A stretch of DNA of 26,351 nucleotides, taken from the IMG/VR virus record IMGVR_UViG_3300029319_000421, positions 1-26,351 of that record. The stretch is one strand, 5' to 3'. A program made the translations under genes and the position numbers. The notes beneath the pieces are model-generated. The model was not told the origin of the DNA. It did not search any database and saw nothing but the letters and a program-made list of their open reading frames with translations. This document shows, one piece after another, positions 4,664-25,256 of the stretch. The stretch is from a virus. Within the stretch, counting starts at the first letter, position 1. The number at the start of each line of letters is the position of its first letter.

Positions 4664-4818
4664 TGAAAGGTCAAAAAAAAGTTAAAAAAGTAATGCGTGA
4701 GTTTAAAAAAGGTAAACTCAACATTGGTGGCTCAAAGAAAAAAGTCAAGAACAGAAAGCAAGCGATTGCAATCGCTCTTTCTGAAGCTGGCATAAGTAAA
4801 AAAAACAGGAGAAAATAA
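4663..4818 (+). CDS. DUF6496-type basic mini-protein (51 aa)
   Basis: A GTG-initiated ORF whose first base is the last base of the upstream TAG stop (TAGTG). The product has 51 residues: MKGQKKVKKVMREFKKGKL, then a Gly/Lys linker, then NRKQAIAIALSEAGISKK. The KKVM.EFK.GKL ... RKQAIAIALSEAG layout is what I know as the DUF6496 family, common in phages and some bacteria, of unknown function. About 40 percent of residues are Lys or Arg. Its 3' end overlaps the next ATG by one base (TAATG). Strong family resemblance makes it real despite its size. Confidence 0.8.
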   Translation: MKGQKKVKKVMREFKKGKLNIGGSKKKVKNRKQAIAIALSEAGISKKNRRK

Positions 4819-4940
4819 TGAAACCAGTACCTGCAGGAAAAAAAGGAAAAGGTCTACGTAAACTTCCTAAAGAAGTCCGAAACAAAATGGGCTTTATGAA
4901 AAAAGGTGGACGAGTAAAAAAAATGAAAAGGAAAAAGTAA
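4818..4940 (+). CDS. Very small basic protein with KKGGRV motif (40 aa)
   Basis: A 40-residue ORF, start overlapping the previous stop by one base and ending directly before the next ATG at 4941. It begins MKPVPAGKKGKGLRKLPKEV and ends in MKKGGRVKKMKRKK. The KKGGRV element is the same short motif found in the neighbouring small genes. The segment GLRKLPKEVRNKMGFMKKGG looks like a conserved unit: a short amphipathic stretch followed by the Gly-Gly turn and a poly-basic tail. Function unknown. Exact end-to-end packing with both neighbours is the main evidence that it is translated. Confidence 0.65.
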   Translation: MKPVPAGKKGKGLRKLPKEVRNKMGFMKKGGRVKKMKRKK

Positions 4941-5216
4941 ATGACGAAACTATGTCCTCGAGGTAAGGCTGCTGCGAAGAGAAAATTTAAGGTATACCCC
5001 AGTGCATACGCGAACGCATATGCTAGCAAAATTTGTGCGGGTAAAATTAAAGATCCATCTGGAGTAAAAAGAAAAGACTTTAGAGGTAGTAAAGCCAAAG
5101 GTGGTTTGATGGGTGAACTCAACAGACCAGATAGAGGTTATAAAAATGGTGGTAAGGTTGCCAGAGGATGTGGTGCTATTATGTCTAACAGACGTAAAAA
5201 AACAAAGATGATGTAA
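4941..5216 (+). CDS. Conserved small phage protein with KVYPSAYANAYASKIC motif
   Basis: 91 residues. The N-terminal half (LCPRGKAAAKRKFKVYPSAY, then ANAYASKICAGKIKDPSG) is a block I recall as strongly conserved among marine phages, with two cysteines flanking an aromatic/Ala helix. The C-terminal half is Gly/Lys-rich and ends GYKNGGKVARGCGAIMSNRR plus a basic tail, again with the GG[K]V motif. It abuts the previous stop (TAA directly followed by ATG). The conserved cysteines (C5, C32, C77) might bind metal, but this cannot be shown here. No function is assigned in any family I know. Confidence 0.75.
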   Translation: MTKLCPRGKAAAKRKFKVYPSAYANAYASKICAGKIKDPSGVKRKDFRGSKAKGGLMGELNRPDRGYKNGGKVARGCGAIMSNRRKKTKMM

Positions 5217-5217
5217 G

Positions 5218-5622
5218 ATGGCAAAAAATGGTCTTGATAAATGGTTCAAACAGAAATGGGTAGATATTGGGAGCAAGCGAAAGGATGGTTCTTTCGCAAA
5301 GTGTGGCCGTTCCAAACAGAAGAAGGACGCCAAACGAAAGTATCCAAAATGCGTCCCACTTGCAAAAGCCACTCGGATGACCGAGTCGCAAAGGGCGAGT
5401 GCTGTCAAACGAAAAAGAGCAGTGGCTCAAGGAGTGGGTGGTAAACCAACCAACGTTGCAACATTTGCAAAGAGAAGTAAAAAAGCAGATGGAGGTTCAG
5501 TTGGTAATTCAATGATCAAACAAGCACAAAGAGATTATAAAGGTAGTTACATTTCTGGAAGTTTGGGTGGTGTGAAAGTTGGTAACCCAAGTTACAAAAA
5601 ATATTATAAGGGAATGTTATAA
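5218..5622 (+). CDS. Conserved phage protein (GLDKWFKQKWVDIGS type)
   Basis: 134 residues. The first half holds GLDKWFKQKWVDIGSKRKDG, CGRSKQKKDAKRKYPKCVPL and KATRMTESQRASAVKRKRA, a pattern I recall in a family of unknown function in marine phages and giant viruses (I believe DUF5872, not verifiable here). Two cysteines sit in CGR and KYPKCVP, spaced like a possible metal pair. The second half has the motif KADGGSVGN, then a Tyr/Gly-rich tail (YKGSYISGSLGGVKVGNPSY). It starts one base after the preceding stop and ends with a one-base overlap (TAATG). Likely a nucleic-acid- or capsid-associated basic protein; function unknown. Confidence 0.72.
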   Translation: MAKNGLDKWFKQKWVDIGSKRKDGSFAKCGRSKQKKDAKRKYPKCVPLAKATRMTESQRASAVKRKRAVAQGVGGKPTNVATFAKRSKKADGGSVGNSMIKQAQRDYKGSYISGSLGGVKVGNPSYKKYYKGML

Positions 5623-5903
5623 TGAGAAGACAGGATAGAATGCCTGCAAGAAATAAAAAGAACTTCAGATCTACGAAGTCTGGAGCAGGAATGACACGAG
5701 CTGGCGTTGCTGCTTACAGAAGAATGAATCCTGGCTCAAAACTAAAAACAGCCGTGACGGGTAAAGTAAAACCTGGATCTAAAGCTGCGAAGAGACGTAA
5801 GTCCTTCTGCGCGAGAAGCGCCGGTCAAATGAAAAAATTTCCTAAAGCAGCAAAGAATCCTAATTCTAGACTACGTCAGGCTAGAAGAAGGTGGAAATGT
5901 TAA
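5622..5903 (+). CDS. Conserved basic phage protein (DUF6321-like)
   Basis: 93 residues, extremely Arg/Lys-rich. Visible blocks are GAGMTRAGVAAYRRMNPGSK, LKTAVTGKVKPGSKAAKRRK, SFCARSAGQMKKFPKAAKNP and a terminal LRQARRRWKC. I recall the GV..YRR.NPGSKL.TAVT ... RRKSFCAR ... RWKC arrangement as a phage family of unknown function, probably DUF6321. The conserved cysteine in SFCAR and the C-terminal cysteine suggest a structural or metal role. The start overlaps the preceding stop by one base. Its 3' end overlaps the next gene's ATG by seven bases, and its own coding sequence supplies that gene's ribosome site. Confidence 0.75.
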   Translation: MRRQDRMPARNKKNFRSTKSGAGMTRAGVAAYRRMNPGSKLKTAVTGKVKPGSKAAKRRKSFCARSAGQMKKFPKAAKNPNSRLRQARRRWKC

Positions 5904-6100
5904 GACAAGCAATACTACAAGCACTAGAAGATAAATACCAAGCACAAATATCTGAAGCAGATGCAACTATAAAAATTTATCTAGATCACTCTGTTGGTAT
6001 CGGAGAACATCCACAACACATAGAAGAGATGGATAAACTTTTACAAAAAATTGTAGATGCTCAAGAAAAACTAAAAGAACTACAGGCTTTTAAATTATGA
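5897..6100 (+). CDS. Small helical conserved phage protein (67 aa)
   Basis: 67 residues, MLRQAILQALEDKYQAQISE onward, with a conserved-looking core NSVGIGEHP-type segment (here DHSVGIGEHPQHIEEMDKLL) between two helices; cyanophages encode comparable proteins. A GTG at 5891 would add two residues, but the AGAAGGTGG ribosome site at 5885-5893 has sensible spacing only to the ATG at 5897, so I prefer that start. The protein is probably a helical hairpin or coiled coil. In contrast to its basic neighbours it is acidic. Function unknown. Confidence 0.72.
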   Translation: MLRQAILQALEDKYQAQISEADATIKIYLDHSVGIGEHPQHIEEMDKLLQKIVDAQEKLKELQAFKL

Positions 6101-6204
6101 TAAATTTTTTTAAAAAACTGTTTGGGATAGATTCTTTGGAAAAAAGAATTAGAATACTAGAGAGAAAAAATTACTGGAGAGAGAAGTATGGCAAAAGATC
6201 CTAA
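6097..6204 (+). CDS. Tiny amphipathic protein (35 aa), overlapped at both ends
   Basis: A 35-residue ORF starting in an ATGA overlap with the previous stop and ending 17 nt inside the next gene. It reads MINFFKKLFGIDSLEKRIRI followed by a basic tail ending KYGKRS. The first 12 residues are a short hydrophobic/basic amphipathic stretch, the rest a charged helix. It fills the only gap between two well-supported genes and is coupled at the 5' end, which is why I list it. It may instead be a non-functional leader that lets ribosomes reach the 6188 start. Confidence 0.42.
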   Translation: MINFFKKLFGIDSLEKRIRILERKNYWREKYGKRS

Positions 6205-6478
6205 GAAAGGAACAGGTAAACACCCTGGAAAAAAATATGGTAGACGACTTTATACTGACGAAAACCCGCGTGACACTGTTGGAATCAAGTTTGCAACGCC
6301 GACAGATGCGAGAAAAACAGTGGCGAAAGTTAAAAAGATTAATAAACCGTTTGCTAGGAAAATTCAAATTTTAACTGTTGGAGAACAGCGAGCCAAAGTT
6401 ATGGGTAAAAGAGAAGTCGCTTCAATATTTAAGAAAGGTAAAGATGCTATCAGGAGAACAAATAATAGAAAAGCTTAA
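6188..6478 (+). CDS. Conserved basic phage protein (KKGTGK...RRLYTDENP)
   Basis: 96 residues with a GGAGAG ribosome site about 7 nt before the ATG. The N-terminus MAKDPKKGTGKHPGKKYGRR, followed by LYTDENPRDTVGIKFATPTD, resembles small proteins I know from cyanophages and other marine phages in which K.GTGKKP...RRLYTDENP.DTV..KF.TP.D is conserved. The C-terminal half (KKINKPFARKIQILTVGEQR AKVMG) is helical and basic. It overlaps the next gene by 35 nt. Function unknown; the N-terminal block looks like a binding peptide rather than an enzyme. Confidence 0.72.
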   Translation: MAKDPKKGTGKHPGKKYGRRLYTDENPRDTVGIKFATPTDARKTVAKVKKINKPFARKIQILTVGEQRAKVMGKREVASIFKKGKDAIRRTNNRKA

Positions 6479-6683
6479 GAGAAGAATAAATGCAACTCTA
6501 CAACAGATTGGAGACAGTATGATTACTGGTGGGGTTGACAGTATGGAAAAATACAAATATATGTTAGGACAGGCAGCAGCCTATCAAATAATAATACAGG
6601 AAATCTCTAACCTGCAAAAAGAAGATGAAAAGGAGCCAAATGACGGAAACGTTATCGACATCAAAGGAAGTACCAAAAACTAA
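6444..6683 (+). CDS. Small conserved helical phage protein (79 aa)
   Basis: 79 residues from the ATG at 6444 (MLSGEQIIEKLKRRINATLQ). Upstream codons in this frame (back to 6378) lie wholly inside the preceding gene and look like shadow sequence. An AAAGG at 6434-6438 gives a ribosome site for 6444. The central ITGGVDSMEKYKYMLGQAAA segment resembles a recurring unit in marine and T7-like phage small proteins (a helix, then a TGG-like turn with Y.Y..G helix). It overlaps the previous gene by 35 nt and the GroES-like gene by 44 nt. Function unknown. Confidence 0.65.
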   Translation: MLSGEQIIEKLKRRINATLQQIGDSMITGGVDSMEKYKYMLGQAAAYQIIIQEISNLQKEDEKEPNDGNVIDIKGSTKN

Positions 6684-7101
6684 ACTGGCACTTCAAGAAA
6701 AATACGATCAAGAAAAAAAAGAAGAATCCCACGCAGTAAGACTAGATCCCGACAATATTAAGGAAATGGTAAGTCAATTACCAGAACCTGTTGGGTATAG
6801 AATTTTAGTTTTACCTTTTACACCAAAAGAGAAAACTAAAGGTGGAATATTATTTTCCCAAGAGCAATTAGATAAAGCTAGAATTGCAACTACGTGTGGT
6901 TATGTTTTAAAAATGGGAGATCTTGCATACAAGGACAAAGAAAAATTTAATAAACCTTGGTGCAAAATAGGAGATTGGGTAATGTTTGCCAGATATGCTG
7001 GTTCACGTTTACCAATAGAAGGTGGAGAAGTGCGAATACTAAACGATGACGAAGTGTTAGGGACCATAGGTGATCCCGAATCAGTTCTTCATTACATTTA
7101 A
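6640..7101 (+). CDS. groES: GroES-like co-chaperonin (phage Cpn10)
   Basis: 153 residues from the ATG at 6640, chosen over the in-frame ATG at 6625 because AAGGAG at 6630-6635 sits four bases before it. Residues ~1-45 are a charged extension absent from bacterial GroES; the Cpn10 fold follows: PVGYRILVLPF, then the mobile-loop region KEKTKGGILFSQEQ, CGYVLKMGDLAY, WCKIGDWVMFARYAG, and C-terminal EVRILNDDEVLGTI. GroES caps the host GroEL chamber; phage versions such as T4 gp31 allow folding of a capsid protein. Lying between portal and scaffold/capsid genes fits that role. I see no GroEL, so it should use the host's. The IEGGEVRILNDDEVLGTI layout is like phage Cpn10 proteins in cyanophages. Confidence 0.85.
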   Translation: MTETLSTSKEVPKTKLALQEKYDQEKKEESHAVRLDPDNIKEMVSQLPEPVGYRILVLPFTPKEKTKGGILFSQEQLDKARIATTCGYVLKMGDLAYKDKEKFNKPWCKIGDWVMFARYAGSRLPIEGGEVRILNDDEVLGTIGDPESVLHYI

Positions 7102-7116
7102 CATAGGAAGGATACT

Positions 7117-8091
7117 ATGCCGACGGAAAACGCACATAAAGCAGATGATCTTATTGATGTAGGCGAAGATAAAGGAGCTGAAATCAATTTAGATGATAAG
7201 GGTGAACCAGAAAAAGTTGAAGCACCCAAGGAAGAGAAGATAGAAGTCGAAGAGGTTACTGATGTCCCTGTTCAAGAGGACAAACGGGAACAACCTGAAG
7301 TTAAGACAGAAGATAAAAAAGACGAGTTAAAAGAATATAGTGAGGGCGTTCAAAAAAGAATTGCTAAACTAACTCGTAAAATGCGAGAAGCTGAAAGACA
7401 AAGAGAAGAAGCAATCGCATTTGCAGAAGCAGCTAATAAATCTAAATCAGATCTAGAAGGAAGACTTTCAAAATTAGATAAGTCTTATGTTTCTGAATTT
7501 GAAAGCAGAGTTAAAACTAATATGGCAGCAGCCAAGTTAGCTTTAAAAAATGCAATCGAATCTCAAAATGTTGAAGCACAAGTAGCAGCACAAGAGCAGA
7601 TAGCTAATTTGACTATGGATGCTGCAAGACTAAATGCTTTAAAAGTTGAAGGTGAAACTAAACCAAGAGAGGAAAAAGAAGTTAATATTAATCCTCAAAG
7701 AGTTCAACAACCTACTACAGATCCTAAAGCTGAAGATTGGGCTTTAAGAAATCCTTGGTTTGGTAATGACTCTGCAATGACTTACACAGCTTTTGATTTA
7801 CATAAAAAGCTTGTGGAAGAAGAAGGTTTCGACCCTAAATCTGACGAATATTATGCAGAAGTTGATAAAAGAATTAGACTTGAATTTCCGCATAAATTTG
7901 ATAAGGTAGAAGATACTACTACAGAAAGAGCAAAACCTGCTCAAACTGTAGCTTCGGCTAAACGTTCAGCCTCAACGAGTAAAGGACGCAAAACTGTCAA
8001 GCTCACACCTTCACAGGTAGCAATCGCTAAAAGATTAGGTGTGCCACTAGAAGAATACGCAAGACAATTAAATATCACGGAAGGAGTATAG
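7117..8091 (+). CDS. Capsid scaffold/assembly protein
   Basis: 324 residues, preceded by AAGGA. Residues ~1-70 are strongly acidic and disordered, 70-190 a long charged coiled coil (KRIAKLTRKMREAERQREEA and on), followed by a Pro/Thr linker. The second half holds DWALRNPWFGNDSAMTYTAF, an acidic/aromatic helix, and a basic C-terminus GRKTVKLTPSQVAIAKRLG with VPLEEYARQL. Acidic coiled-coil body with a basic C-terminal helix is the usual design of a scaffolding protein whose C-terminus binds the capsid protein. The LTPSQ.A.AK.LGVPLEEYA ending is one I recall in marine-phage proteins at this position. No protease motif is visible, so it is likely scaffold only. Confidence 0.75.
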   Translation: MPTENAHKADDLIDVGEDKGAEINLDDKGEPEKVEAPKEEKIEVEEVTDVPVQEDKREQPEVKTEDKKDELKEYSEGVQKRIAKLTRKMREAERQREEAIAFAEAANKSKSDLEGRLSKLDKSYVSEFESRVKTNMAAAKLALKNAIESQNVEAQVAAQEQIANLTMDAARLNALKVEGETKPREEKEVNINPQRVQQPTTDPKAEDWALRNPWFGNDSAMTYTAFDLHKKLVEEEGFDPKSDEYYAEVDKRIRLEFPHKFDKVEDTTTERAKPAQTVASAKRSASTSKGRKTVKLTPSQVAIAKRLGVPLEEYARQLNITEGV

Positions 8092-15250: not shown

Positions 15251-15427
15251 ATGACGGCAATAGTAAACGGTGTTCAATACATTGGAGGTCAAACATCTCC
15301 AGATGAATTTATAAAAAATCAAGCGTCAACGATTGACGGAACTCAAACAATAGACAGTGCAGTTCTTGCAGGACCTATTACTGTTCCTGCAACTATAACA
15401 GTAACGGGGACTTTAGTAATAGTGTAA
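15251..15427 (+). CDS. Small virion-type protein (58 aa)
   Basis: A 58-residue ORF with AGGGGGAA before the ATG. MTAIVNGVQYIGGQTSPDEF is followed by Ile/Thr/Ala/Val strand-forming sequence ending GPITVPATITVTGTLVIV, which looks like a few repeated beta strands such as those at the tip of a fibre. Its stop overlaps the ATG of the first Gly-rich fibre by one base (TAATG), so translation is probably coupled. A helper or tip peptide for the fibre is plausible from position only. Confidence 0.6.
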   Translation: MTAIVNGVQYIGGQTSPDEFIKNQASTIDGTQTIDSAVLAGPITVPATITVTGTLVIV

Positions 15428-16773
15428 TGTCAAAGATAGAAGTAAATACAGTTGCACCACAATGCGGAACTACTTTAACACTAGGGGAATCTGGTGATAC
15501 AGTAACTCTTGGATCTGGCGCGTCACAAACAGGATTTGGTAGAACAGGAACTGTAGATTGGCAAACAGATATTAAAACTACAACTTTTACAGCTGCAAAC
15601 GGAGAAGGTTATTTTGTAAATACTACTAGTGGAGGAATCACAGTAAATCTTCCAGCAGGCACAGCTGGATCTATTGTGTCTATAAAAGATTATTTAGGAA
15701 CTTTTAATAGCGGCAACTGTACTGTCGCTGCAAATGGTTCACAAAAAATTAATGGTTTAACTTTAGATGCTACATTAAATCAAACCGGTCAATCTGTTAC
15801 TTTAATTTATTCAGATGACACACAAGGTTGGTTGAATGTTCAGACAGATACCACTGTTGTAGGAAAGTCTTATATAGCAGCAACAGGAGGAACTGTTACT
15901 ACAGTTTGCACAGATTTTAAAGTACATACATTTACAGGTCCAGGAACTTTTTGTGTTTCAGCAGTGGGAAATCCTACAGGTTCAGACACAGTTTCTTATT
16001 TAGTTGTGGCTGGCGGCGGTGCAGGATCGTCTTCTGATGTGGGTGGAGCTGGTGGAGCAGGTGGTTATAGAGAAGGTAGAGCAAGTTATGATACTTATTC
16101 AGTTTCTCCATTGAACGCACCAGCTGGTTTACCTGTATCTGTTCAAGGATACCCAATTACAGTTGGAGCAGGTGGAGCAGGTCAAGCTAATAACGCTGGA
16201 AATCCTGGAGTAAGGGGAGGAGAAGGAAATAATTCAATTTTTTCAACTATAACATCAGCTAAAGGTGGTGCAGGTGGTTCAGCAACTCCTGAAAATAATG
16301 GAACAGCAGGTGGTTCAGGTGGTGGTGGATCACATTCTAGTAGTGGTACTGGTGGAGCAGGAAATACACCTCCTGTAAGTCCACCTCAAGGAAATAGTGG
16401 TGGTAACGCCCCTGGAGCAGGAAATCCTGCTTATGGTGCTGGTGGTGGCGGTGGAGCTGGTGGAGCCGGTAGCGCTGGTACAACTTCTACAGGTGGGCCT
16501 GGTGGTCCAGGAGTGGCTACTTCAATTACAGGTGCCTCTGTCACAAGAGCCGGTGGTGGAGCTGGATCAGGAGATGCTCCAGGAACTGGTGGTACGGGTG
16601 GACCTGGTGGTGGTGGACCAAGTAATGCATCTGCTAGTGATGCAACGTCGGGAACGGCTAATACTGGTGGTGGTGGAGGCGGTGCCTCCGGACCTGGTGG
16701 TGGTGGATCTGGTGGAGCTTCTGGGTCTGGTGGATCAGGAATAGTTGTGATAAGGTATAAATTTCAAAATTAA
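15427..16773 (+). CDS. Glycine-rich tail fibre/adhesin, paralogue 1
   Basis: 448 residues. Residues 1-50 carry a short repeat-like N-terminus ending FGRTGTVDWQT (37-47). Residues ~50-140 are a beta domain (NGEGYFVNTTSG, VNLPAGTAGSIVSIKDY, VTLIYSDDTQGWLNV); a linker with FKVHTFTGPGTFCVS follows. From ~190 to ~440 the chain is mostly Gly/Ala/Ser in runs of GG separated by short motifs (YPITVGAGGAG, NTPPVSPPQG at 313-322), closed by SGIVVIRYKFQN. Gly-rich runs of this type form polyglycine-II helix sandwiches in known phage adhesins such as S16 gp38, and give receptor specificity. First of three tandem paralogues; the start overlaps the upstream stop by one base. A host-binding role is inferred from this architecture. 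Confidence 0.82.
   Translation: MSKIEVNTVAPQCGTTLTLGESGDTVTLGSGASQTGFGRTGTVDWQTDIKTTTFTAANGEGYFVNTTSGGITVNLPAGTAGSIVSIKDYLGTFNSGNCTVAANGSQKINGLTLDATLNQTGQSVTLIYSDDTQGWLNVQTDTTVVGKSYIAATGGTVTTVCTDFKVHTFTGPGTFCVSAVGNPTGSDTVSYLVVAGGGAGSSSDVGGAGGAGGYREGRASYDTYSVSPLNAPAGLPVSVQGYPITVGAGGAGQANNAGNPGVRGGEGNNSIFSTITSAKGGAGGSATPENNGTAGGSGGGGSHSSSGTGGAGNTPPVSPPQGNSGGNAPGAGNPAYGAGGGGGAGGAGSAGTTSTGGPGGPGVATSITGASVTRAGGGAGSGDAPGTGGTGGPGGGGPSNASASDATSGTANTGGGGGGASGPGGGGSGGASGSGGSGIVVIRYKFQN
16351..16377 (+). repeat. 27-base exact repeat shared by fibre paralogues 1 and 3 (copy 1)
   Basis: Bases 16351-16377, starting GGTGGAGCAGGAAATACACC, recur exactly at 19189-19215. The repeat encodes the Gly-Ala-Gly-Asn-Thr-Pro-Pro-Val segment at the heart of the Gly-rich domain. 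Direct orientation, about 2.8 kb apart. It could serve as a recombination site between fibre genes. Confidence 0.85.
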
Positions 16774-16775
16774 TT

Positions 16776-18149
16776 ATGACAAGCACAATTAAAGTAAACA
16801 ACGTTCAAAACCAATGTGGTCAAAACATTATTAACGAGAGTAGTAATACAATCACTATTGGCGCTAGTGGTGATACGATTGCTTTAGCATCAGGCGCAAG
16901 TCAGACAGGCTTTGGTAGGACAGGAACAGTAGACTGGCAAACATCAATTAAAACAGCTGCGAGTTTTACTCCAGCAAATGGTGAGGGTTACTTTGTGGAT
17001 ACATCAAGTAATGCTGTAACTGCAAATTTACCAGCAGGTTCTGTTGGAGCGATTGTAGCTTTTAAAGATTACGCACAAAATTTTGACACAAATGCTTTAA
17101 CTATCGTTGCTAATGGATCTGAAAAAATTGAAGGACAAACTTTTAATTTAATTCTAAATATAGAAGGACAAGGTGCTACTTTAGTTTATGGTGATGCTAC
17201 AAAAGGTTGGCAAGTTGTTAATAGTAACGACATTGCAAACGTACAAAAATTTGTAACAGCAACTGGTGGCACAGAAACGGTGGTTTGTACAAATTTTAAA
17301 GTCCACACTTTTACAGGTCCAGGAACTTTTGACGTTCAATGTGCTGGTAATCCAGGTGGTTCAAGTAGTGTAGATTATTTAGTAGTTGCTGGTGGGGGTG
17401 GTGGAGGAAGCCTCGGCGGCGGTGGAGGCGGAGGAGGTTTTAGAGAATCTCCTGGAACAGCATCAGGAAGTTATACTGCATCACCTTTAGGAACATCACC
17501 GGCTGTGGCTTTACCAGTTACAGCAAGAACTTTTCCAATTACAGTAGGTGCTGGAGGAGCAGGCGGTGGACCTACTCAACCAGGTGCAGCAGGTTCAGTT
17601 TCAACATTTTCAACAATTACTTCTGCAGGTGGAGGATTTGGTGGTGGACACGCAGGAGGTGCTATTGGAGCAGGTGGTTCTGGCGGTGGTCAAGGTTTTC
17701 CAAGTGGTCCAACTTCTGCAGGTGCAGCAGGAAATACTCCACCAGTTGATCCTCCTCAAGGTCAACCAGGAGGTGGTGGTCAAAATGCAAATACTTATTC
17801 AGGCGGTGGTGGAGGTGCTACAGAGGCAGGTGAAACAACTCCAGGTTCTGCTGGTGGTAGAGGTGGCGCAGGTGGAACAACTAACATACCTGGATCACCA
17901 ATATCAAAATCTGGTGGTGGCGGTGGAGGAATTAATGGTGCTGCTCCAGGAAGTGCAGGTGCAGGAAGTCCTTGTGGCTCTGGCGCGGCAGGAATAAAAG
18001 GTGGTAGTAGTGGAGCAGGACCAAGTGCAAGTGCAAACACTGGCGGTGGCGGTGGTGGGGGTGCACATACATCAAGTCCACCGACTGGCTCTACTAATGG
18101 TGGAGCAGGAGGAAGTGGTATCGTAGTAATAAGGTATAAGTTTCAATAG
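16776..18149 (+). CDS. Glycine-rich tail fibre/adhesin, paralogue 2
   Basis: 457 residues, two bases after paralogue 1 without a clear ribosome site, so probably translated by re-initiation. Same order: N-terminal stretch ending FGRTGTVDWQT, beta domain (NGEGYFVDTSSN, ANLPAGSVGAIVAFKDY, ATLVYGDATKGWQVV), FKVHTFTGPGTFDVQ, then a Gly-rich domain from about residue 200 with NTPPVDPPQG (320-329), ending SGIVVIRYKFQ. Differences from paralogue 1 are mostly in the Gly-rich half: different lengths of GGG runs and inserts such as TASGSYTASPLGTS and TTNIPGSPISKSG. Variable adhesive half with a conserved anchoring half suggests diversification of host contact. Confidence 0.82.
   Translation: MTSTIKVNNVQNQCGQNIINESSNTITIGASGDTIALASGASQTGFGRTGTVDWQTSIKTAASFTPANGEGYFVDTSSNAVTANLPAGSVGAIVAFKDYAQNFDTNALTIVANGSEKIEGQTFNLILNIEGQGATLVYGDATKGWQVVNSNDIANVQKFVTATGGTETVVCTNFKVHTFTGPGTFDVQCAGNPGGSSSVDYLVVAGGGGGGSLGGGGGGGGFRESPGTASGSYTASPLGTSPAVALPVTARTFPITVGAGGAGGGPTQPGAAGSVSTFSTITSAGGGFGGGHAGGAIGAGGSGGGQGFPSGPTSAGAAGNTPPVDPPQGQPGGGGQNANTYSGGGGGATEAGETTPGSAGGRGGAGGTTNIPGSPISKSGGGGGGINGAAPGSAGAGSPCGSGAAGIKGGSSGAGPSASANTGGGGGGGAHTSSPPTGSTNGGAGGSGIVVIRYKFQ
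17292..17323 (+). repeat. 32-base exact repeat shared by fibre paralogues 2 and 3 (copy 1)
   Basis: Bases 17292-17323, beginning AATTTTAAAGTCCACACTTT, recur exactly at 18742-18773 and encode the FKVHTFTGPG linker before the Gly-rich domain. Paralogue 1 has a diverged version at about 15917. This is the junction between the conserved and variable halves of the fibres. Confidence 0.85.
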
Positions 18150-18156
18150 GTAAATT

Positions 18157-19584
18157 ATGAGTGAAATAAAAGTAAATAAAATTAGTCCAAGAACAAATTG
18201 TGGCACAACACAATTAGGAGACGCTGGAGATACAATCACTGTTACAGGTGATTTAAAATCAAATTCAATTAAAACAGCATCTGGTTCAACTCTTACAATA
18301 GGTCAATCAGGTGATACTGTAACACTTGCTTCAGGTGCATCACAAACAGGGTTTGGTAGAACAGGAACTGTAGACTGGCAGACAGGATCAATTAAAACAG
18401 GAAACTTTACAGCAGCAAATGGTGAAGGTTATTTTATTGATACTACAAGTGGTGCAATTACAATGAGTTTACCAGCAGGAAGTGCTGGTGCAATAGTATC
18501 AGTTCAAGATTATGCAAACACATTTGATTCAAACGCATTAACAATAAATCCAAATGGATCACAAAAAATAAATGGTGGTGAAGGTGGTGCGGGAATAACT
18601 ATAAACACAGAATCTCAAGGGTTAACTTTTGTTTACGTTGATTCAACTCAAGGATGGAAAACAGTTCAAGACAACACTTTTGGAACAGCTGGATCTGCTT
18701 ATGTTGCAGCTACAGGAGGAACCATAACAACAGTTTGTACGAATTTTAAAGTCCACACTTTTACAGGTCCAGGCACATTTTGTGTATCTGCAGCAGGTGG
18801 TCCTAGTGGTTCTAATACAGTAGATTATTTAGTTCTTGCTGGCGGCGGTAGTGGAGGTTCAAGAGATAGAGCAGGTGGAGGTGGAGCAGGTGGTTATAGA
18901 GAATCATCAGGTGCTGCTTCAGGTTGTTACACTGCAAGTCCATTAGGATCTAGTGTTTCGGCATTACCGGTTTCAGTACAAGGTTACCCAATAACAGTTG
19001 GAGCAGGAGCTTCGGCAAATCCTGCAGTTAGTAGAGGAAATCAAGGTTCAACTTCAACTTTTTCAACAATATCTTCTGCTGGTGGTGGCGCTGGTGGAGG
19101 TGATAATGGTGATAGTGTTCCCGCATTAGCAGGTGGATCTGGTGGTGGAAGAGGTGTTGGTGGATTACCTTGTGGACCCGTACAGCCTGGTGGAGCAGGA
19201 AATACACCTCCTGTATCTCCGCCTCAAGGAAATAATGGTGGAGGTGGTCAACACAATGGAAATGGTGGATCAGGTGGTGGCGGTGGTGCTGGAGCTGTCG
19301 GAGTTGATGGAAATGGAAACCCCCCTGGACAAGGTGGCGCTGGCGGAAATGGTGTAGCAAGTTCAATTACAGCATCCCCTGTCACAAGAGGTGGCGGCGG
19401 TGGTGGAGGAGGAGATCAAGGACCACGACCTGGAGGATCAGGTGGTGGAGGTGCTGCTCTACCAGGAGGCGGAGCAGGAACAGCTAACCTTGGCGGTGGC
19501 GGTGGAGGTACCGACACAAGTGGTGGTTCAGGTGGCGCTGGAGGATCAGGAATAGTAGTAATAAGATACAAATTTCAAAATTAA
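18157..19584 (+). CDS. Glycine-rich tail fibre/adhesin, paralogue 3
   Basis: 475 residues. It differs from the other two by an N-terminal insertion (about 20-25 residues around DTITVTGDLKSNSIKTASGS, repeating the 'GDTxTxxG' unit), after which FGRTGTVDWQT, the beta domain (NGEGYFIDTTSGA, MSLPAGSAGAIVSVQDY, LTFVYVDSTQGWKTV) and FKVHTFTGPGTFCVS follow. The Gly-rich domain runs from ~224 and contains NTPPVSPPQG (349-358) and the shared end SGIVVIRYKFQN. Its YPITVGAGASANP and the 27-base DNA identity with paralogue 1, plus a 32-base identity with paralogue 2, point to mosaic exchange. Last gene before the enzyme block. Confidence 0.82.
   Translation: MSEIKVNKISPRTNCGTTQLGDAGDTITVTGDLKSNSIKTASGSTLTIGQSGDTVTLASGASQTGFGRTGTVDWQTGSIKTGNFTAANGEGYFIDTTSGAITMSLPAGSAGAIVSVQDYANTFDSNALTINPNGSQKINGGEGGAGITINTESQGLTFVYVDSTQGWKTVQDNTFGTAGSAYVAATGGTITTVCTNFKVHTFTGPGTFCVSAAGGPSGSNTVDYLVLAGGGSGGSRDRAGGGGAGGYRESSGAASGCYTASPLGSSVSALPVSVQGYPITVGAGASANPAVSRGNQGSTSTFSTISSAGGGAGGGDNGDSVPALAGGSGGGRGVGGLPCGPVQPGGAGNTPPVSPPQGNNGGGGQHNGNGGSGGGGGAGAVGVDGNGNPPGQGGAGGNGVASSITASPVTRGGGGGGGGDQGPRPGGSGGGGAALPGGGAGTANLGGGGGGTDTSGGSGGAGGSGIVVIRYKFQN
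18742..18773 (+). repeat. 32-base exact repeat shared by fibre paralogues 2 and 3 (copy 2)
   Basis: Exact copy of 17292-17323 in the third fibre gene, in direct orientation 1450 bases downstream, at the equivalent domain boundary. Confidence 0.85.
19189..19215 (+). repeat. 27-base exact repeat shared by fibre paralogues 1 and 3 (copy 2)
   Basis: Exact copy of 16351-16377 in the third fibre gene; the flanking sequences differ, and the second fibre has only a synonymous variant at this place. Confidence 0.85.
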
Positions 19585-19629: not shown

Positions 19630-20085
19630 ATGGCACATTTTGCAAAACTAGGAGCTAACGGAAAAGTTATTCAAGTGTTAACTATGGATAACGATAAGAT
19701 GTTAAACGCTGATGGTGTTGAAGACGAAGCAGTAGGTCAACAGTGGTTAGAAACACACAACAACTGGCCTGCACAAATGTGGATTCAAACTTCATATAAC
19801 ACTATGAATAACAAACACAGCTCTGGTGATAACTCAAAAGCATTTAGAGGAAACTACGCAGGTATAGGTTTTGAGTGGGATGAAGATAATCAAATCTTTT
19901 GGCCTAAAAAACCTTATGCGTCTTGGGTAAAAGATATTACAACTGCAACTTGGAAATCACCAATTGGTGATGCTCCTGCATTAACTGCAGAACAAACTTC
20001 ACAAAATGAAGCTGGTACTCATAGGTGGAGTTATGTTTGGAATGAATCAGGCCAGTCTTGGGACTTGACAGACCATAACGCATAA
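19630..20085 (+). CDS. Conserved phage protein (MAHFAKLGANGKVIQVL type)
   Basis: 151 residues, AAGGAG before the ATG. It opens MAHFAKLGANGKVIQVLTMD and has GQQWLETHNNWPAQMWIQTS YNT, FRGNYAGIGFEWDEDNQIFW, PKKPYASWVKDITTATWKSP and a Trp-rich C-terminus (HRWSYVWNESGQSWDLTD). Cyanophage T4-like genomes carry very similar proteins ('MAHFA.LDENN.V..V..V.N ... W.QTSYN...R..FRGN.AGIG..YD...D.F..PKP..SW.LN...W..P'), usually within tail or fibre regions, of unknown function. Very high Trp content (about nine residues in 151). It opens the enzyme block but is separated from the overlapping genes by 18 bases. Confidence 0.78.
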   Translation: MAHFAKLGANGKVIQVLTMDNDKMLNADGVEDEAVGQQWLETHNNWPAQMWIQTSYNTMNNKHSSGDNSKAFRGNYAGIGFEWDEDNQIFWPKKPYASWVKDITTATWKSPIGDAPALTAEQTSQNEAGTHRWSYVWNESGQSWDLTDHNA

Positions 20086-20103: not shown

Positions 20104-20607
20104 ATGCAAAAGAAAGTATTATCTGAACAAGCTTTATATTATGGTGACGTGGCAATGCCTAAAGATTGGGACATTGACCGAGGTAAATTAGAAAAAGACA
20201 TTTTACAATCAGTAATTCAAAACAAAGAATTTCCATTCTCAAGAACTTGGGATATGTTGAATACATATATGCGAGATCACATTAATCTTGAGTATGGTTT
20301 TAATTTAATTAGTAAAAAAACGTGGGGCAATATCTATAAACCTGCAGAAACAACAATTCCATTATTAAATATAGATCCAGTAGATCTACGTAACTCACCA
20401 GATTATACACTGTTATATGGTGTCAAAGTTGAAGATTGTAATGTTAGAATATATTATGAAGATAATAGACGTAAAGGTAGATCTTGGGATATACCATTAG
20501 AAAATAATAAATTTATAATGTTTCCATCAACTAATATGTATTATTTAACTAATAATCAAAAGGATAGTTTAAATTTTGTACAAACTATAACGTATGAATA
20601 TATCTAA
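20104..20607 (+). CDS. Double-stranded beta-helix-like protein without visible iron ligands
   Basis: 167 residues. AAAGG at 20091-20095 gives good spacing to the ATG at 20104. Start MQKKVLSEQALYYGDVAMPK; the second half has LLNIDPVDLRNSPDYTLLYG, VRIYYEDNRRKGRSWDIPLE, NNKFIMFPSTNMYYLTNNQK and a final LNFVQTITYEYI. The strand order 'V.I.Y.DNRR.G..W..PL.NN..I.FPS...Y.........F..T..Y.Y' copies the C-terminal half of the 2OG-oxygenase fold, but the position where the distal His is expected (FPSTNMYY) has no His and no H-x-D is present, so catalysis by iron is unlikely. I recall homologues beside 2OG oxygenases in cyanophages. It may be a partner or regulatory subunit. The 3' end overlaps the next gene by 14 bases. 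Confidence 0.6.
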   Translation: MQKKVLSEQALYYGDVAMPKDWDIDRGKLEKDILQSVIQNKEFPFSRTWDMLNTYMRDHINLEYGFNLISKKTWGNIYKPAETTIPLLNIDPVDLRNSPDYTLLYGVKVEDCNVRIYYEDNRRKGRSWDIPLENNKFIMFPSTNMYYLTNNQKDSLNFVQTITYEYI

Positions 20608-21223
20608 TTACTATTGGTATTTTACTGGTGCGTTAACCCCTAGGTTCTGTGATGAGGTAATACAGTATGCTAATGCACAAAAAGAAGTTATGGCTAGGAC
20701 AGGTGGTTATGGTGATAAAAAATTAAATAAAGAAGAGATACTAGATTTAAAAAGAAAAAGAAACTCTGATTTAGTATGGCTCAATGATACTTGGATATAT
20801 AAAGAGTTACATCCCTATGTGCACGAAGCAAATAAAGCTGCTGGTTGGAACTATGATTGGGATAGAAGTGAGTCTTGTCAGTTTACAAAATATAAATTAA
20901 ATCAATACTATGATTGGCATTGTGATAGTTGGGACAAACCTTATGATAAAGAAGGACCCGAAAAAGGTAAGATTAGAAAACTATCTATGACTTGTCAGTT
21001 AACAGACGGATCAGAATATAAAGGTGGTGAATTAGAATTTGATTTTAGAAACTATGATCCACATATGCGAGACGAATCAAAACATAGAATACAATGTAAA
21101 GAAATATTACCAAAAGGATCAATCATTGTGTTTCCTAGTTTTGTGTGGCACAGAGTTAAACCAGTAACCGCTGGCACAAGATACAGTCTTGTTGTTTGGC
21201 ATTTAGGAAGACCATTTAAATGA
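20594..21223 (+). CDS. 2OG-Fe(II) oxygenase, prolyl-hydroxylase-like (PKHD type)
   Basis: 209 residues; ATG lies 14 bases inside the preceding gene. Fe(II) ligands are visible: His109 and Asp111 in YDWHCDSWDKP, distal His186 in PSFVWHRVKPV, and Arg196 in TRYSLVVWHLG to bind 2-oxoglutarate. Preceding SMTCQLTDGSEYKGGELEFD and EILPKGSIIVFPSFVWHRVK are the usual core strands of P4H/PKHD hydroxylases. These enzymes hydroxylate an unactivated C-H, typically a side-chain of a peptide or a small molecule, using O2 and 2-oxoglutarate. The substrate cannot be read from sequence. It ends in an ATGA overlap with the halogenase gene, so the two are probably co-translated. Confidence 0.87.
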   Translation: MNISNYYWYFTGALTPRFCDEVIQYANAQKEVMARTGGYGDKKLNKEEILDLKRKRNSDLVWLNDTWIYKELHPYVHEANKAAGWNYDWDRSESCQFTKYKLNQYYDWHCDSWDKPYDKEGPEKGKIRKLSMTCQLTDGSEYKGGELEFDFRNYDPHMRDESKHRIQCKEILPKGSIIVFPSFVWHRVKPVTAGTRYSLVVWHLGRPFK

Positions 21224-22704
21224 AAATATTAATTGTAGGTGGTGGAAGTGCAGGGTGGATGACAGCAGCCACTTTAGAATCACAGTTTCCAAATTATAAA
21301 ATATCATTAATTGAATCTAAAAATATATCTACAGTTGGTGTAGGTGAAAGCACTCTTGGTCAAATAACTGATTGGATGCGGTTGCTTAAAATAAAAGATA
21401 ACAATTTTATAAAACACGTAGATGGTAGTTATAAATTAAGTATAAAATTTACAGACTTTTATAAAAAAGGAGAGGCTTTTCATTATCCATTTGGAAAACC
21501 TGTTACAGAAGATACACAAGCAGGAATTAACGATTGGTGGTTTAAAAAAATACTTAATCCTAAAACACCCTATGCTGACTATGCAGATTGTACCTATCCT
21601 TTACAAATGGCTTATGTTAATCAAAACAAATTTGATATAAATGAAGTACAAAGGGCTTATCATTTTGATGCGACCAAGTTTGGTTTATGGTTAAAAAACA
21701 ATTATTGTAAAAAAATAAAACACATAGTTGATGATGTCATTTCCATAGAACAAGATAAAAATGGAATTAAATCTTTAAATAAAAAATATAAAGCTGATTT
21801 ATACATAGACTGCACTGGGTTTAAATCTTTATTACTGGACAAAACTTTAAAAGAACCTTTTGAATCATACTCTGATATGTTACCTAATGATTCTGCGTGG
21901 GCTACAAGAATCCAATACAAAAACAAAGAAAAAGAATTAGTGCCTTACACAAACTGCACAGCTATTGAAAATGGTTGGGTTTGGAACATACCTTTATGGT
22001 CTAGAATTGGAACAGGTTACGTATACTCAAGTAAATTTGTAGATGATGAAACAGCACTAAAAGAATTTAAAAAACATTTAGGTCAAGATAATTTAGAATT
22101 TAAAAATATAAAAATGAGAGTTGGTATTCATAATAGACTATGGGTAAAAAATGTAGTGGCAATTGGATTGTCTGCTGGGTTTATAGAACCATTAGAAAGT
22201 AATGGTTTATATACGGTTCACGAATTTTTAATAAAATTAATTAGAAATTTAGGTAGAGATAAAATATCTCAATGGGATAGAGATAATTTTAATTATCAGT
22301 GTAAACATATGTTTAGAGAGTTTTCTGAATTTGTAGCAATGCATTATGCTTTATCTCATAGAGACGATACAGAGTATTGGAAAACTTGTAATAATAAATC
22401 TTGGGAAAAAAATTTAATAAATTTAAAACCCACATCTGTTTCAGGTTTTAAAGAAGCAGTTTGGAGAAGAACTTATGAGTGGAGATATCCTTCTAATACA
22501 GGTCTTCATTGCATTGCAGCTGGTATGCATTGGGCTCCTACCGATAAAGTATCTTTAATAAAAGAAGGTGGTTTTTCAGAGGAATCTATTGAAGAAAAAT
22601 TTGAATCTGCTATAGAAAAATTAAATGATAGAAAGGAATTGTGTAAACAGCTTGTTAAAGAAAAACCAAATTTGTTTTCAGTTTTAAAAAATGTACATAA
22701 ATAA
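21220..22704 (+). CDS. Flavin-dependent tryptophan-halogenase-like enzyme
   Basis: 494 residues, in the usual range (PrnA 538, PyrH 511). It oxidises halide with FADH2 and O2 to a hypohalous acid that is held by a lysine and transferred to an aromatic or other electron-rich substrate. Visible: FAD-binding GGGSAGWMTA (7-16); VGVGEST (39-45); Lys72 in DGSYKLSIKFTDF, aligned to the catalytic Lys79 of PrnA; WVWNIP at 253-258, the W-x-W-x-I-P diagnostic motif; and FIEPLESNGL (321-330) with Glu326 aligned to PrnA Glu346. All expected catalytic landmarks are intact. No flavin reductase is in the window, so the host must provide FADH2. Cyanophage Syn10 VirX1 shows that phages encode active halogenases, there preferring iodide. 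G+C is low (about 25-32% in sampled lines), like its neighbours. Confidence 0.92.
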   Translation: MKILIVGGGSAGWMTAATLESQFPNYKISLIESKNISTVGVGESTLGQITDWMRLLKIKDNNFIKHVDGSYKLSIKFTDFYKKGEAFHYPFGKPVTEDTQAGINDWWFKKILNPKTPYADYADCTYPLQMAYVNQNKFDINEVQRAYHFDATKFGLWLKNNYCKKIKHIVDDVISIEQDKNGIKSLNKKYKADLYIDCTGFKSLLLDKTLKEPFESYSDMLPNDSAWATRIQYKNKEKELVPYTNCTAIENGWVWNIPLWSRIGTGYVYSSKFVDDETALKEFKKHLGQDNLEFKNIKMRVGIHNRLWVKNVVAIGLSAGFIEPLESNGLYTVHEFLIKLIRNLGRDKISQWDRDNFNYQCKHMFREFSEFVAMHYALSHRDDTEYWKTCNNKSWEKNLINLKPTSVSGFKEAVWRRTYEWRYPSNTGLHCIAAGMHWAPTDKVSLIKEGGFSEESIEEKFESAIEKLNDRKELCKQLVKEKPNLFSVLKNVHK

Positions 22705-23323
22705 TTATTTTAACACGACCATTTGGTCAGAACACAAACCAGAGTTTGTTAAGTCTTTAAATAAAGCGAGTAACAAATATATTAAAGAATCGAGAGACAG
22801 AAATAAAGCACATATTAAAAAATATGGAGACTTTGGATTGTCTCATCACTCAACACCACTTACAGTCGATAACGATTTTTTAGATTTTAGAAATTACATT
22901 GGTCAAAAATCTTGGGAGTATTTAGATCATCAAGGTTATGATATGTCACAATATCAAACTATTTTTAGTGAGTTATGGGTACAAGAGTTTTCTAAAAAAG
23001 GTGGTGGACACCACAGTGCACACATACATTGGAATCAACACGTATCGGGTTTTTATTTTTTAAAGTGTAGTGATAAAACTTCTTATCCAATATTTCACGA
23101 ACCGAGAACAGGTGCTAGAGCTACAAAATTAAAAATGAAACCAGATCAAAAAGGTGTGTGGCCAGGTTCAGAACTTATACATTTTAAACCTACACCAGGC
23201 ACATTAATTATATTTCCAGGATTTTTGGAACACGAATATGCAGTAGACTATGGCATAGAGCCTTTTAGATTTATACATTGGAATATACAAGCAGTGCCAA
23301 AAGAAATGGCTAAAGATGTTTAA
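22691..23323 (+). CDS. 2OG-Fe(II) oxygenase, 2OG-FeII_Oxy_5-like
   Basis: 210 residues, overlapping the halogenase by 14 bases. FSELWVQEFSKKGGGHHSAH IHWNQHVSGFYFLKC holds the His111-x-His113 pair with 'HxH.N...SG.YYL' spacing typical of the phage family known as putative 2OG-Fe(II) oxygenase (PF13759-like). ELIHFKPTPGTLIIFPGFLE with His181 (FLEHEY) gives the distal ligand, and Arg193 in PFRFIHWN may hold the 2OG carboxylate. The first metal site is less canonical than a plain H-x-D, as usual in this family. The N-terminal 60 residues are charged and not typical of the core. Substrate unknown. It overlaps the next gene by eight bases. Confidence 0.8.
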   Translation: MYINNYFNTTIWSEHKPEFVKSLNKASNKYIKESRDRNKAHIKKYGDFGLSHHSTPLTVDNDFLDFRNYIGQKSWEYLDHQGYDMSQYQTIFSELWVQEFSKKGGGHHSAHIHWNQHVSGFYFLKCSDKTSYPIFHEPRTGARATKLKMKPDQKGVWPGSELIHFKPTPGTLIIFPGFLEHEYAVDYGIEPFRFIHWNIQAVPKEMAKDV

Positions 23324-23972
23324 AAAGAAAAAATATACAATAATACGTCAAGCAATATCAAAAGATCTAGCAGCTTTTGTTGCAAATTATTTTTTAATGC
23401 AGAAACAAGTATATGATACTTGTAAAGTGTCTAGATACTTTTCACCTTTTGAAACCATACTTGGATATTACGAAGGTGAGAATGAACAGATTCCAAACAC
23501 CTATTCTGCTTATGGTAATATCGCTATGGAAACTTTATTACTTAAATGTCAACCAGAAATGGAAAAAGCAACAGGATTAAAATTATATCCAGCTTACACT
23601 TATGCTAGAATATATAAAAAAGGTGATGAATTAAAAAGACACAAAGATAGATTTAGTTGTGAGATATCTACTACTATGAATCTTGGTGGAGATGACTGGC
23701 CAATATATCTAGAACCAAATCCTAAAAAAGGTGGTGTAAAACCAGGTGTTGGATATGTATCTGATAACACTAAAGGTGTTAAAGTAGATTTAAAACCAGG
23801 AGATATGCTGGTTTATTCTGGCTGTGAGCTAGAACATTGGAGAGAAAAATTCAAAGGCAAAGAATGCGTACAGGTTTTTCTGCATTATAACAATCGTAAG
23901 ACCCCAGGAGCGAAGGATAATATGTTTGACAAACGTCCACATTTAGGTCTTCCTAACTGGTTTAAACGATGA
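23316..23972 (+). CDS. 2OG-Fe(II) oxygenase-like protein
   Basis: 218 residues, overlapping the previous gene by eight bases. Landmarks are YARIYKKGDELKRHKDRFSC (His109, Asp111), STTMNLGGDDWPIYLEP and DLKPGDMLVYSGCELEHWRE (distal His174), then ECVQVFLHYN. The spacing of about 63 residues between H-x-D and the distal His is typical of the double-stranded beta-helix. The usual 2OG-binding Arg is not obvious (Gln186 occupies the neighbourhood), so activity is likely but the co-substrate site may be variant. I recall related proteins in cyanophages. The C-terminus (KTPGAKDNMFDKRPHLGLPN) forms a tail. Last gene of the enzyme block, followed by a hairpin. Confidence 0.78.
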   Translation: MFKKKKYTIIRQAISKDLAAFVANYFLMQKQVYDTCKVSRYFSPFETILGYYEGENEQIPNTYSAYGNIAMETLLLKCQPEMEKATGLKLYPAYTYARIYKKGDELKRHKDRFSCEISTTMNLGGDDWPIYLEPNPKKGGVKPGVGYVSDNTKGVKVDLKPGDMLVYSGCELEHWREKFKGKECVQVFLHYNNRKTPGAKDNMFDKRPHLGLPNWFKR

Positions 23973-24034: not shown

Positions 24035-24484
24035 ATGAGTTTAGGATTTGACGCAATATCAGCATTACCATTCGCTACATCGGGCCCAGATACAGATGTA
24101 AGTGTTTCAGTAACCGGTAATTCACTTAACATTACAATTGGTAGTGTCGGTATTATTGCAGATTCAGTAGTAGAAAATTTAACAGCAAATCAAGTAACTT
24201 TAGGTACAGGTACTTTAAGTATTAGAACAGATGTAGATCACACTGTTACAGGCTCACAAGTAACTTTAAATATAGGTAATTTTACTATCAGCACAGATGT
24301 TGATGTATTACCATCAGGTGTTGACTTGACCTTGGCTACAGGTAATGTTACAATAACTGCTGACGCAAATATAAGTCCTACAGGTTCTCAATTAACATTA
24401 GATACCGTAGAACCAGGAGTTATTACGTGGAACGATATAGTACCAGGAGCAACAATGGTTTGGACACCAATAAAACCTTATTAA
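24035..24484 (+). CDS. Repetitive beta-strand virion protein (149 aa)
   Basis: 149 residues, AAGGA before the ATG. After MSLGFDAISALPFATSGPDT come about five copies of a 22-24 residue unit of the form 'D..V..TG..LTL..G..TI.T', for example TDVDHTVTGSQVTLNIGNFT and TDVDVLPSGVDLTLATGNVT. The last unit changes into PGVITWNDIVPGATMVWTPI with conserved aromatic residues. Such repeats fold as a stack of short beta strands and occur in fibre or tail proteins of marine phages (I recall 'V.P.G..L....G...I.AD.N..' repeats). The number of units may vary between relatives. Its stop is one base before the next ATG. Confidence 0.72.
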   Translation: MSLGFDAISALPFATSGPDTDVSVSVTGNSLNITIGSVGIIADSVVENLTANQVTLGTGTLSIRTDVDHTVTGSQVTLNIGNFTISTDVDVLPSGVDLTLATGNVTITADANISPTGSQLTLDTVEPGVITWNDIVPGATMVWTPIKPY

Positions 24485-24485
24485 T

Positions 24486-25256
24486 ATGGCATCAACATTT
24501 TCATCAGATTTATCATTAGAGTTAGTCGCAACCGGCGAAAAAGCAGGTCTATGGGGAGCAATAACAAATACTAATTTACAATTATTACAAACAGCTGCAT
24601 CAGGTTATGTGGAAGTAACTTTAAGTTCTGGTAATGTAAACTTAAGTTTAGCCGATGGAGACGCAACTGCAAACGGCAAAAATCTTTACATCAAAGTTAC
24701 AGGAACTTTATCCGGTAACGCAAGTTTAACAATGCCAGCAACTACATCTGGTGGTAATGCTAACAGAGTATTTTTTGTAGAAGATGGAACTACTAGAGGT
24801 GGAGCTGGTGATAGTTATACAGTGACTTTACTTACAACAGGTCAAAGTGCATCTACACAAGTGCCTCTTCCCGAAGGTGCAAAAGTTTTAGTTTATTCTA
24901 GAGGTAGTGTTCCAGCTACAACTTTAGCTATGATGGAAAAAGGATTTACGGAAGTAACTGCAGCTAGCAAAACAGCATACACAGCAGTTGCTGGAGATCA
25001 AATTGGTGTTGATACTGTTGCTAATATTGTAACAATTACACTTCCAGCATCACCTGCACAAGGTGATGAAGTAACAATTATGGATGTGTCTGCATCTAAT
25101 GGTTTTGGAACTAACAAATGTGTGGTTGCAAGAAACGGATCAAATATTCAAGGTGGTACATCTGATTTAGACTTAACTGCAAATAATCAATGTGTAACAC
25201 TAATCTTTACGACTGCTACAAAGGGTTGGCAAATAAAAACTAATAGTACATCATAG
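24486..25256 (+). CDS. Tail fibre-type protein with a domain shared with the Gly-rich fibres
   Basis: 256 residues. The N-terminus MASTFSSDLSLELVATGEKA with GLWGAITNTNLQLLQTAASG is a common phage tail-fibre module ('L.L.L...GE.AG.WG..TNTNL..L..A..GY'). The rest is beta-rich. Residues ~165-252 (AVAGDQIGVDTVANIVTITL, PASPAQGDEVTIMDV, NGSNIQGGTSDLDL, VTLIFTTATKGWQIK) match the beta domain of the three Gly-rich paralogues (…YFV.T....ITVNLPAG..G.IVSIKDY … NGSQKI.G … VTLIY.D.TQGW..V). This shared domain argues that they belong to one appendage. It starts one base after the previous stop. Confidence 0.78.
   Translation: MASTFSSDLSLELVATGEKAGLWGAITNTNLQLLQTAASGYVEVTLSSGNVNLSLADGDATANGKNLYIKVTGTLSGNASLTMPATTSGGNANRVFFVEDGTTRGGAGDSYTVTLLTTGQSASTQVPLPEGAKVLVYSRGSVPATTLAMMEKGFTEVTAASKTAYTAVAGDQIGVDTVANIVTITLPASPAQGDEVTIMDVSASNGFGTNKCVVARNGSNIQGGTSDLDLTANNQCVTLIFTTATKGWQIKTNSTS

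Follow-up and report, generated by a model that had tools for sequence, protein, structure and literature searches.

A fibre-linked oxygenase cassette with an optional flavin-dependent halogenase in an HTVC023P-type pelagiphage

The subject of this analysis is a block of five overlapping genes (positions 20104 to 23972) in a virus fragment of 26,351 nt, IMG/VR record IMGVR_UViG_3300029319_000421, which is referred to in its full length as the window. Four of the genes (genes 1, 2, 4, and 5) code for proteins of the 2-oxoglutarate (2OG) oxygenase type and form a conserved cassette behind glycine-rich tail-fibre genes, and the remaining one, gene 3, encodes a flavin-dependent halogenase, an accessory plug-in that sits as a clean insert where genes 2 and 4 would otherwise meet. 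The interpretation that we favour, tentatively and at slightly less than an even chance, is that of a late, exchangeable enzyme set that tailors the Gly-rich fibres or a Trp-rich partner protein, with halogenation being optional and the gene 1 product acting as a non-catalytic partner. The five genes are as follows.

20104-20607, plus strand: gene 1, predicted degenerate 2OG-oxygenase fold (double-stranded β-helix, DSBH) without the HxD...H iron site
20594-21223, plus strand: gene 2, 2OG-Fe(II) oxygenase resembling PKHD and prolyl 4-hydroxylase (P4H) enzymes, with full HxD...H...R
21220-22704, plus strand: gene 3, VirX1-like flavin-dependent halogenase, located between genes 2 and 4
22691-23323, plus strand: gene 4, PF13759 2OG-type oxygenase with an HxH...H...R metal site
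23316-23972, plus strand: gene 5, 2OG-oxygenase fold with HxD...H; phrog_2954, mislabelled "ferrochelatase"

The capsid protein of the window shows 95.7% identity to that of pelagiphage 023Pt_psg01 and 72% to that of HTVC023P, and the window was therefore assigned to an HTVC023P-type pelagiphage, a virus infecting the most numerous bacteria in the ocean. Consistently, its capsid, tail, and cassette genes are homologous to those of this phage type and their order is kept.

The halogenase as an insert in a cassette with signs of translational coupling

The overlaps of 14, 4, 14, and 8 nt between the five open reading frames (ORFs), which had been described in an earlier, sequence-only reading of the window, were reproduced exactly. 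Junction lengths were counted over related contigs fetched for comparison, with negative values denoting overlaps in nt. The junction between genes 1 and 2 was -14 in 106/106 contigs, that between gene 2 and the halogenase -4 in 62/63, that between the halogenase and gene 4 -14 in 47/47, and that between genes 4 and 5 -8 in 35/35; where gene 2 directly meets gene 4 without an insert, the value was -1 or +1. Shine-Dalgarno pairing is absent at the starts of genes 2 and 4 (+0.9 kcal/mol, compared to about -5 to -13 kcal/mol for most genes of the window). Together with the invariant overlaps, this supports the tight translational coupling proposed in the sequence-only reading. Of 31 different inserts, 25 likewise start within the final 14 nt of gene 1; the 14-nt overlap is therefore a property of the 3' end of gene 1 itself and no sign of a partner-specific complex. 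We infer that a joint hydroxylation-halogenation pathway may exist.

Gene 3 matches PF04820 (8.8e-110 over residues 2 to 399) and phrog_2928 (residues 1 to 473), and its closest relative of solved structure is VirX1 (PDB 6qgm; 1.5e-99). The match to VirX1 stops near residue 392, the C-terminal part being divergent. All catalytic motifs are present and conserved across 89 aligned sequences, i.e., GGGSAGW (the GxGxxG motif for flavin adenine dinucleotide), K72 (equivalent to K79 of PrnA), WVWNIP (WxWxIP), and EPLES. The ratio of nonsynonymous to synonymous substitution rates is about 0.11-0.17, so that the halogenase, described as intact from the outset, is judged by sequence to be a maintained enzyme under purifying selection.

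HTVC023P (gp64-67) and 023Pt_psg01 possess genes 1, 2, 4, and 5 and lack the halogenase. Among 50 loci picked by gene 1, the junction of genes 2 and 4 was empty in 43, occupied by the halogenase in 4, and occupied by something else in 3. One fixed five-gene operon, as which the block had originally been interpreted, was thus ruled out, the halogenase being mostly missing from gene 1 loci and the junctions accepting other oxygenases. Inserts at three cassette junctions form clusters that are nearly all of the PF13759 or PF13640 type; approximately 68 of 71 fall in clusters whose representatives look like 2OG-type proteins, and those of other kinds include a carbamoyltransferase and a ParB-like protein. 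When loci were collected with the window halogenase as the query, at least two of genes 2, 4, and 5 were found within 5 kb of it at 29 of 30 distinct loci with full flanks (at least 1.4 kb on each side), many of which have a common backbone ancestry. The combination is hence not confined to one contig, occurring also in the cyanophage Sf-CH11, and in phage contigs the halogenase homologues are not mostly separated from the cassette oxygenases. In two more distant podoviruses (contigs L116 and L126), whose halogenases are 82-83% identical to that of the window and whose genes 2 and 5 reach 41-47% and 43-47% identity, respectively, the order of Gly-rich fibre, oxygenases, halogenase, and tail gene is kept.

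Several individual loci are recorded here as separate observations. The carbamoyltransferase, another tailoring enzyme, comprises 548 amino acids and is encoded at the junction of genes 1 and 2 of L161 (positions 5741-7384), a phage that also has the halogenase. Contig L137 contains tandem halogenases (positions 4821-7684), one window-like and one grouping with the P-SSM2 halogenase; just 5' of them lies a gene for a protein of phrog_7084, the family that adjoins VirX1 in Syn10. Matches to phrog_274, "DNA endonuclease V," occur inside oxygenase clusters (L126, 4808-5326; L131, 6980-7495; L162, 4823-5320), and one of the matching proteins is annotated in GenBank as a 2OG dioxygenase-domain protein; the endonuclease label of this family may be wrong.

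The oxygenase-type proteins

The gene 1 product has neither a Pfam nor a PHROG match, and an alignment of 34 sequences contains no invariant His and no HxD...H motif, in agreement with its initial description as iron-ligand-less. Its AlphaFold model (predicted local distance difference test [pLDDT], 89.6) retrieved 3bvc, PHD2, and the prolyl-4-hydroxylase of P. putida in a Foldseek search against the PDB (E values of 4e-07 to 1e-05) and also resembles many cyanophage 2OG proteins. According to this model, gene 1 encodes a degenerate 2OG fold, in which the DSBH is retained and the iron ligands are missing.

For the gene 2 product (PF13640, 3.8e-15), the nearest relatives in the PDB are the PKHD hydroxylase PiuC (9.2e-08) and P4Hs; H109, D111, H186, and R196 are invariant, which corresponds to a complete iron site plus the 2OG-binding Arg. 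The gene 4 product (PF13759, 4e-12; PDB 3bvc, 9.9e-06) has the invariant pattern H111-x-H113...H181...R193 in place of the canonical HxD/E...H site, and the HxH variant is common to PF13759-type inserts and HTVC027P proteins. As far as the motif tells, gene 4 does not code for a canonical HxD enzyme, and its function may resemble that of one. The original assignment of genes 2, 4, and 5 to the 2OG-Fe(II) oxygenases consequently holds for genes 2 and 5, which have HxD...H, and needs qualification for gene 4.

The gene 5 product belongs to phrog_2954 (9.9e-52) and has no Pfam match. H109, D111, and H174 are invariant, and the AlphaFold model (pLDDT, 86.1) shows a DSBH fold, with the P. putida P4H from a complex with EF-Tu as the top Foldseek match (6e-09), followed by PHD and MINA53/NO66; a profile search also gave a weak Tet-like match (E, 0.16). 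The ferrochelatase label given by PHROGs and GenBank is contradicted by the HxD...H motif, the fold, and the profile: all of the 50 fold matches listed are 2OG-type oxygenases and none is a ferrochelatase, and the profile search against the PDB returned no ferrochelatase match either. The "ferrochelatase" of pelagiphages and cyanophages (HTVC023P gp67, phrog_2954) is thus a 2OG-oxygenase-fold protein with HxD...H, and the interpretation as an iron/heme partner in PMC9599517 depends on the wrong label.

Linkage to glycine-rich fibres in pelagiphages and cyanophages

As the sequence-only reading had placed it, the block is located between fibre and tail genes, which are listed below.

15427-16773, 16776-18149, and 18157-19584, plus strand: three consecutive Gly-rich tail-fibre genes, PF21722 Gly_rich_2 (2.3e-18, 2.9e-09, and 6.9e-12, respectively), phrog_2295
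19630-20085, plus strand: Trp-rich phrog_7759 protein of 151 amino acids (6e-31), just before the cassette
24035-24484 and 24486-25256, plus strand: structural/tail genes 3' of the cassette, syntenic with HTVC023P gp68-69

The Gly-rich fibres are candidate substrates of the enzymes. Residues W51, W99, W108, and W137 are invariant in the phrog_7759 alignment, and the protein is probably a dedicated partner of the fibres, e.g., a chaperone or adhesin. In contigs L232, L257, and L284, the genes alternate in the order fibre, phrog_7759, fibre, phrog_7759. The product of 24486-25256 matches phrog_31104 (6.6e-55) and tail-fibre families, and HTVC023P gp69 is annotated as "putative tail protein."

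A tail gene further upstream served as a marker to find contigs, 11 of which bear Gly-rich fibres. Nine of these, including the window's own record or one nearly identical to it, have the cassette behind the fibres; of the other two, L232 ends in partial oxygenase matches and L284 has none. All phrog_81/61 oxygenases of HTVC023P and 023Pt_psg01 are located in the tail region. A corresponding linkage was observed in 17 myovirus records with a halogenase, comprising cyanophages and the pelagiphage HTVC008M: in 10 of them the halogenase lies less than 1.5 kb from a Gly_rich_2 fibre, compared to a per-genome chance of 0.02-0.07, figures that are not independent given the relatedness of the genomes. 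Second halogenases, present in five of these genomes, are 8-68 kb away. Within 8 kb of fibre-adjacent halogenases, 1-6 oxygenases were counted versus 0.6-1.8 expected, differences that are individually weak, and the phrog_2954 family of gene 5 is found at most 6.6 kb from the halogenase in 7 of the 9 cyanophages carrying it. In cyanophages, some copies of the halogenase are broken by a stop codon or a shift of frame (S-PM2, 121316-122701; P-TIM40, 183734-184855; S-SSM7, 168249-169337), which suggests, at the sequence level, decay of some copies not linked to fibres.

Four known systems come closest. HTVC023P gp64-67 (Wittmers 2022, PMC9599517) are 78-90% identical to genes 1, 2, 4, and 5 and share their order but lack a halogenase, an enzyme that the paper, which reads gene 5 as ferrochelatase, does not mention. 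VirX1 of cyanophage Syn10 shares PF04820/phrog_2928, the catalytic Lys, WxWxIP, and EPLES with the window halogenase, and its gene likewise lies directly behind Gly_rich_2 fibres and adjoins phrog_81 oxygenases. The two halogenases are, however, only about 44% identical, and Syn10 is a T4-like myovirus with tandem halogenases and a phrog_1787 protein in the place of phrog_7759; a common origin of these two small upstream proteins was rejected by profile comparison (probability near 0). The Synechococcus phage Sf-CH11 (PV340848), whose halogenase is the nearest cultured-phage relative on the halogenase tree, has a Gly-rich fibre, phrog_274, phrog_81, halogenase, phrog_61, and phrog_2954 in a row before the neck genes, but differs in the swapped order of phrog_61 and phrog_81, the lack of gene 1, its Synechococcus host, and its 196-kb genome. 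Finally, the 10-gene halogenase/2OG/cupin/carbamoyltransferase cluster of S-SSM6a, for which a halogenated metabolite was predicted (Iyer 2021, PMC7824862), also combines a phage halogenase with several 2OG and cupin-like enzymes, whereas its halogenase is distant and it includes carbamoyltransferases and sugar and methyltransferase genes; no carbamoyltransferase, sugar, or methyl genes were recognised in the 26-kb window.

Fibre tailoring and competing interpretations

Tailoring of fibre or tail proteins was preferred because the cassette is tied to fibres in both pelagiphages and T4-like cyanophages, because Sf-CH11 carries the same partner families, and because the halogenase of L116 and L126, despite diverged genes 2 and 5, still adjoins a Gly-rich fibre and several oxygenases. 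It is further favoured by the nearly exclusive 2OG type of the junction cargo, by the closest folds being those of protein hydroxylases (P4H with EF-Tu, PHD2, and MINA53/NO66), by the tail location of the phrog_81/61 oxygenases in HTVC023P and 023Pt_psg01, and by the fact that no small-molecule backbone genes were recognised in the window. In such a scheme, the cassette genes would be expressed together with the fibre genes, and the side chains hydroxylated by the oxygenases would belong to the Gly-rich fibres, to the Trp-rich phrog_7759 protein, or to both. The halogenase would target aromatic residues of the same proteins, using reduced flavin of the host and bromide, chloride, or iodide from seawater, and the iron-less gene 1 product would serve as a substrate binder or scaffold. 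Enzyme swaps at the junctions could diversify the surface chemistry of receptor binding.

To our knowledge, no substrate during infection has been established for any viral halogenase, although such enzymes have been known for more than 10 years. The linkage of fibre, oxygenase, and halogenase in pelagiphages, T4-like cyanophages, and the VirX1 locus indicates one substrate class that is testable in cultured phages. The more far-reaching proposal that two unrelated marine phage groups use exchangeable enzyme sets to hydroxylate and halogenate their own Gly-rich fibres or fibre partners, with a dead oxygenase as an adaptor, is in our judgment unlikely as a whole; if true, a virion protein would be halogenated by an enzyme after its translation, and this would be the physiological role of VirX1-type viral halogenases. 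Published work already covers halogenases of phages, expansions of 2OG enzymes in phages, and a single cluster combining the two (PMC10452541, PMC9599517, PMC7824862). In the literature searched, we found no precedent for a fibre-linked oxygenase cassette whose first member is dead, for the halogenase as its accessory insert in pelagiphages, for the T4-like cyanophage counterpart including the VirX1 locus, or for the "ferrochelatase" reassignment, and no report on hydroxylation of Gly-rich phage fibres.

A number of observations weigh against fibre tailoring. The halogenase of contig L086 (2713-4194), 86% identical to that of the window, comes right after a DNA polymerase gene and away from fibres and oxygenases; that of L124 adjoins an endolysin gene with no cassette oxygenases nearby; and that of S-B64 (49% identity) is part of a recombination module. 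The tree does not neatly separate the halogenases next to fibres from the rest and requires 5-6 changes of location; a single clade of fibre-adjacent halogenases was rejected on this basis. Because of these locations and changes, the halogenase must be regarded as mobile and its function as not strictly dependent on the present oxygenases. It is absent in most phages of the HTVC023P type, and the Trp content of the fibres or of phrog_7759 is not higher in halogenase carriers; small Tyr and His differences in their last fibre are confounded by relatedness. In addition, HTVC027P, which has neither Gly-rich fibres nor the cassette, keeps three oxygenases on the opposite strand of its tail region. 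The one transcriptome published for the HTVC023P type, which comes from this phage, showed temporal classes in mosaic order (PMC12753301). Folds resembling protein hydroxylases are also found in small-molecule enzymes, OkaE, AsqJ, and EctD being among the fold matches of gene 5.

The last point leads to the principal alternative, which we consider somewhat unlikely, namely that a free small molecule (Trp, indole, or a lipid or sugar derivative) is oxidised and halogenated during infection to yield a signal, toxin, or protectant. In vitro, VirX1 acts on diverse small molecules as a halogenase (Gkotsi 2019, cited in PMC10452541), the S-SSM6a cluster sets a precedent, the junction insert of L161 is a carbamoyltransferase, and protection of the pyrrolnitrin type has been proposed (PMC2984593, PMC9964418). 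However, we recognised no genes of backbone synthesis or of sugar or amino-acid pathways near the cassette, whose position follows the fibres in two groups of viruses, and the S-SSM7 halogenase that does adjoin sugar genes is only distantly related (31%).

Somewhat less likely still is an insertion hotspot, i.e., a fibre-adjacent region gathering accessory genes, with the oxygenases and the halogenase being unrelated cargo acting on separate substrates. Such a view would account for the variable slots, the presence of the halogenase in just 8% of loci, the clean junctions upon gain or loss, and the related halogenases elsewhere in genomes. It is at odds with the narrow cargo, which consists almost entirely of DSBH/2OG-type genes and the halogenase instead of mixed auxiliary genes, with the same partner families in Sf-CH11, and with the retention of at least two oxygenases at nearly every distinct halogenase locus. 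A role of AlkB-like oxygenases in nucleic-acid modification or repair, with an incidental halogenase, is highly improbable: it was proposed for cyanophage prolyl-hydroxylase-like proteins adjoining UvsX/UvsY (PMC2984593) and could draw on the Tet-like match of gene 5, but the genes are placed among virion genes, most of the best matches in structure are to oxygenases acting on proteins or small molecules, and no nucleic-acid role is known for any halogenase.

Matches to promoters or terminators that would isolate the cassette were no more frequent than in shuffled sequence, and a scan for RNA families and tRNAs found none. A gene for a GroES-like co-chaperonin (6625-7101) is located 5' of the capsid gene, and a run of small Lys/Arg-rich ORFs (4304-6478) lies between the portal and GroES-like genes.

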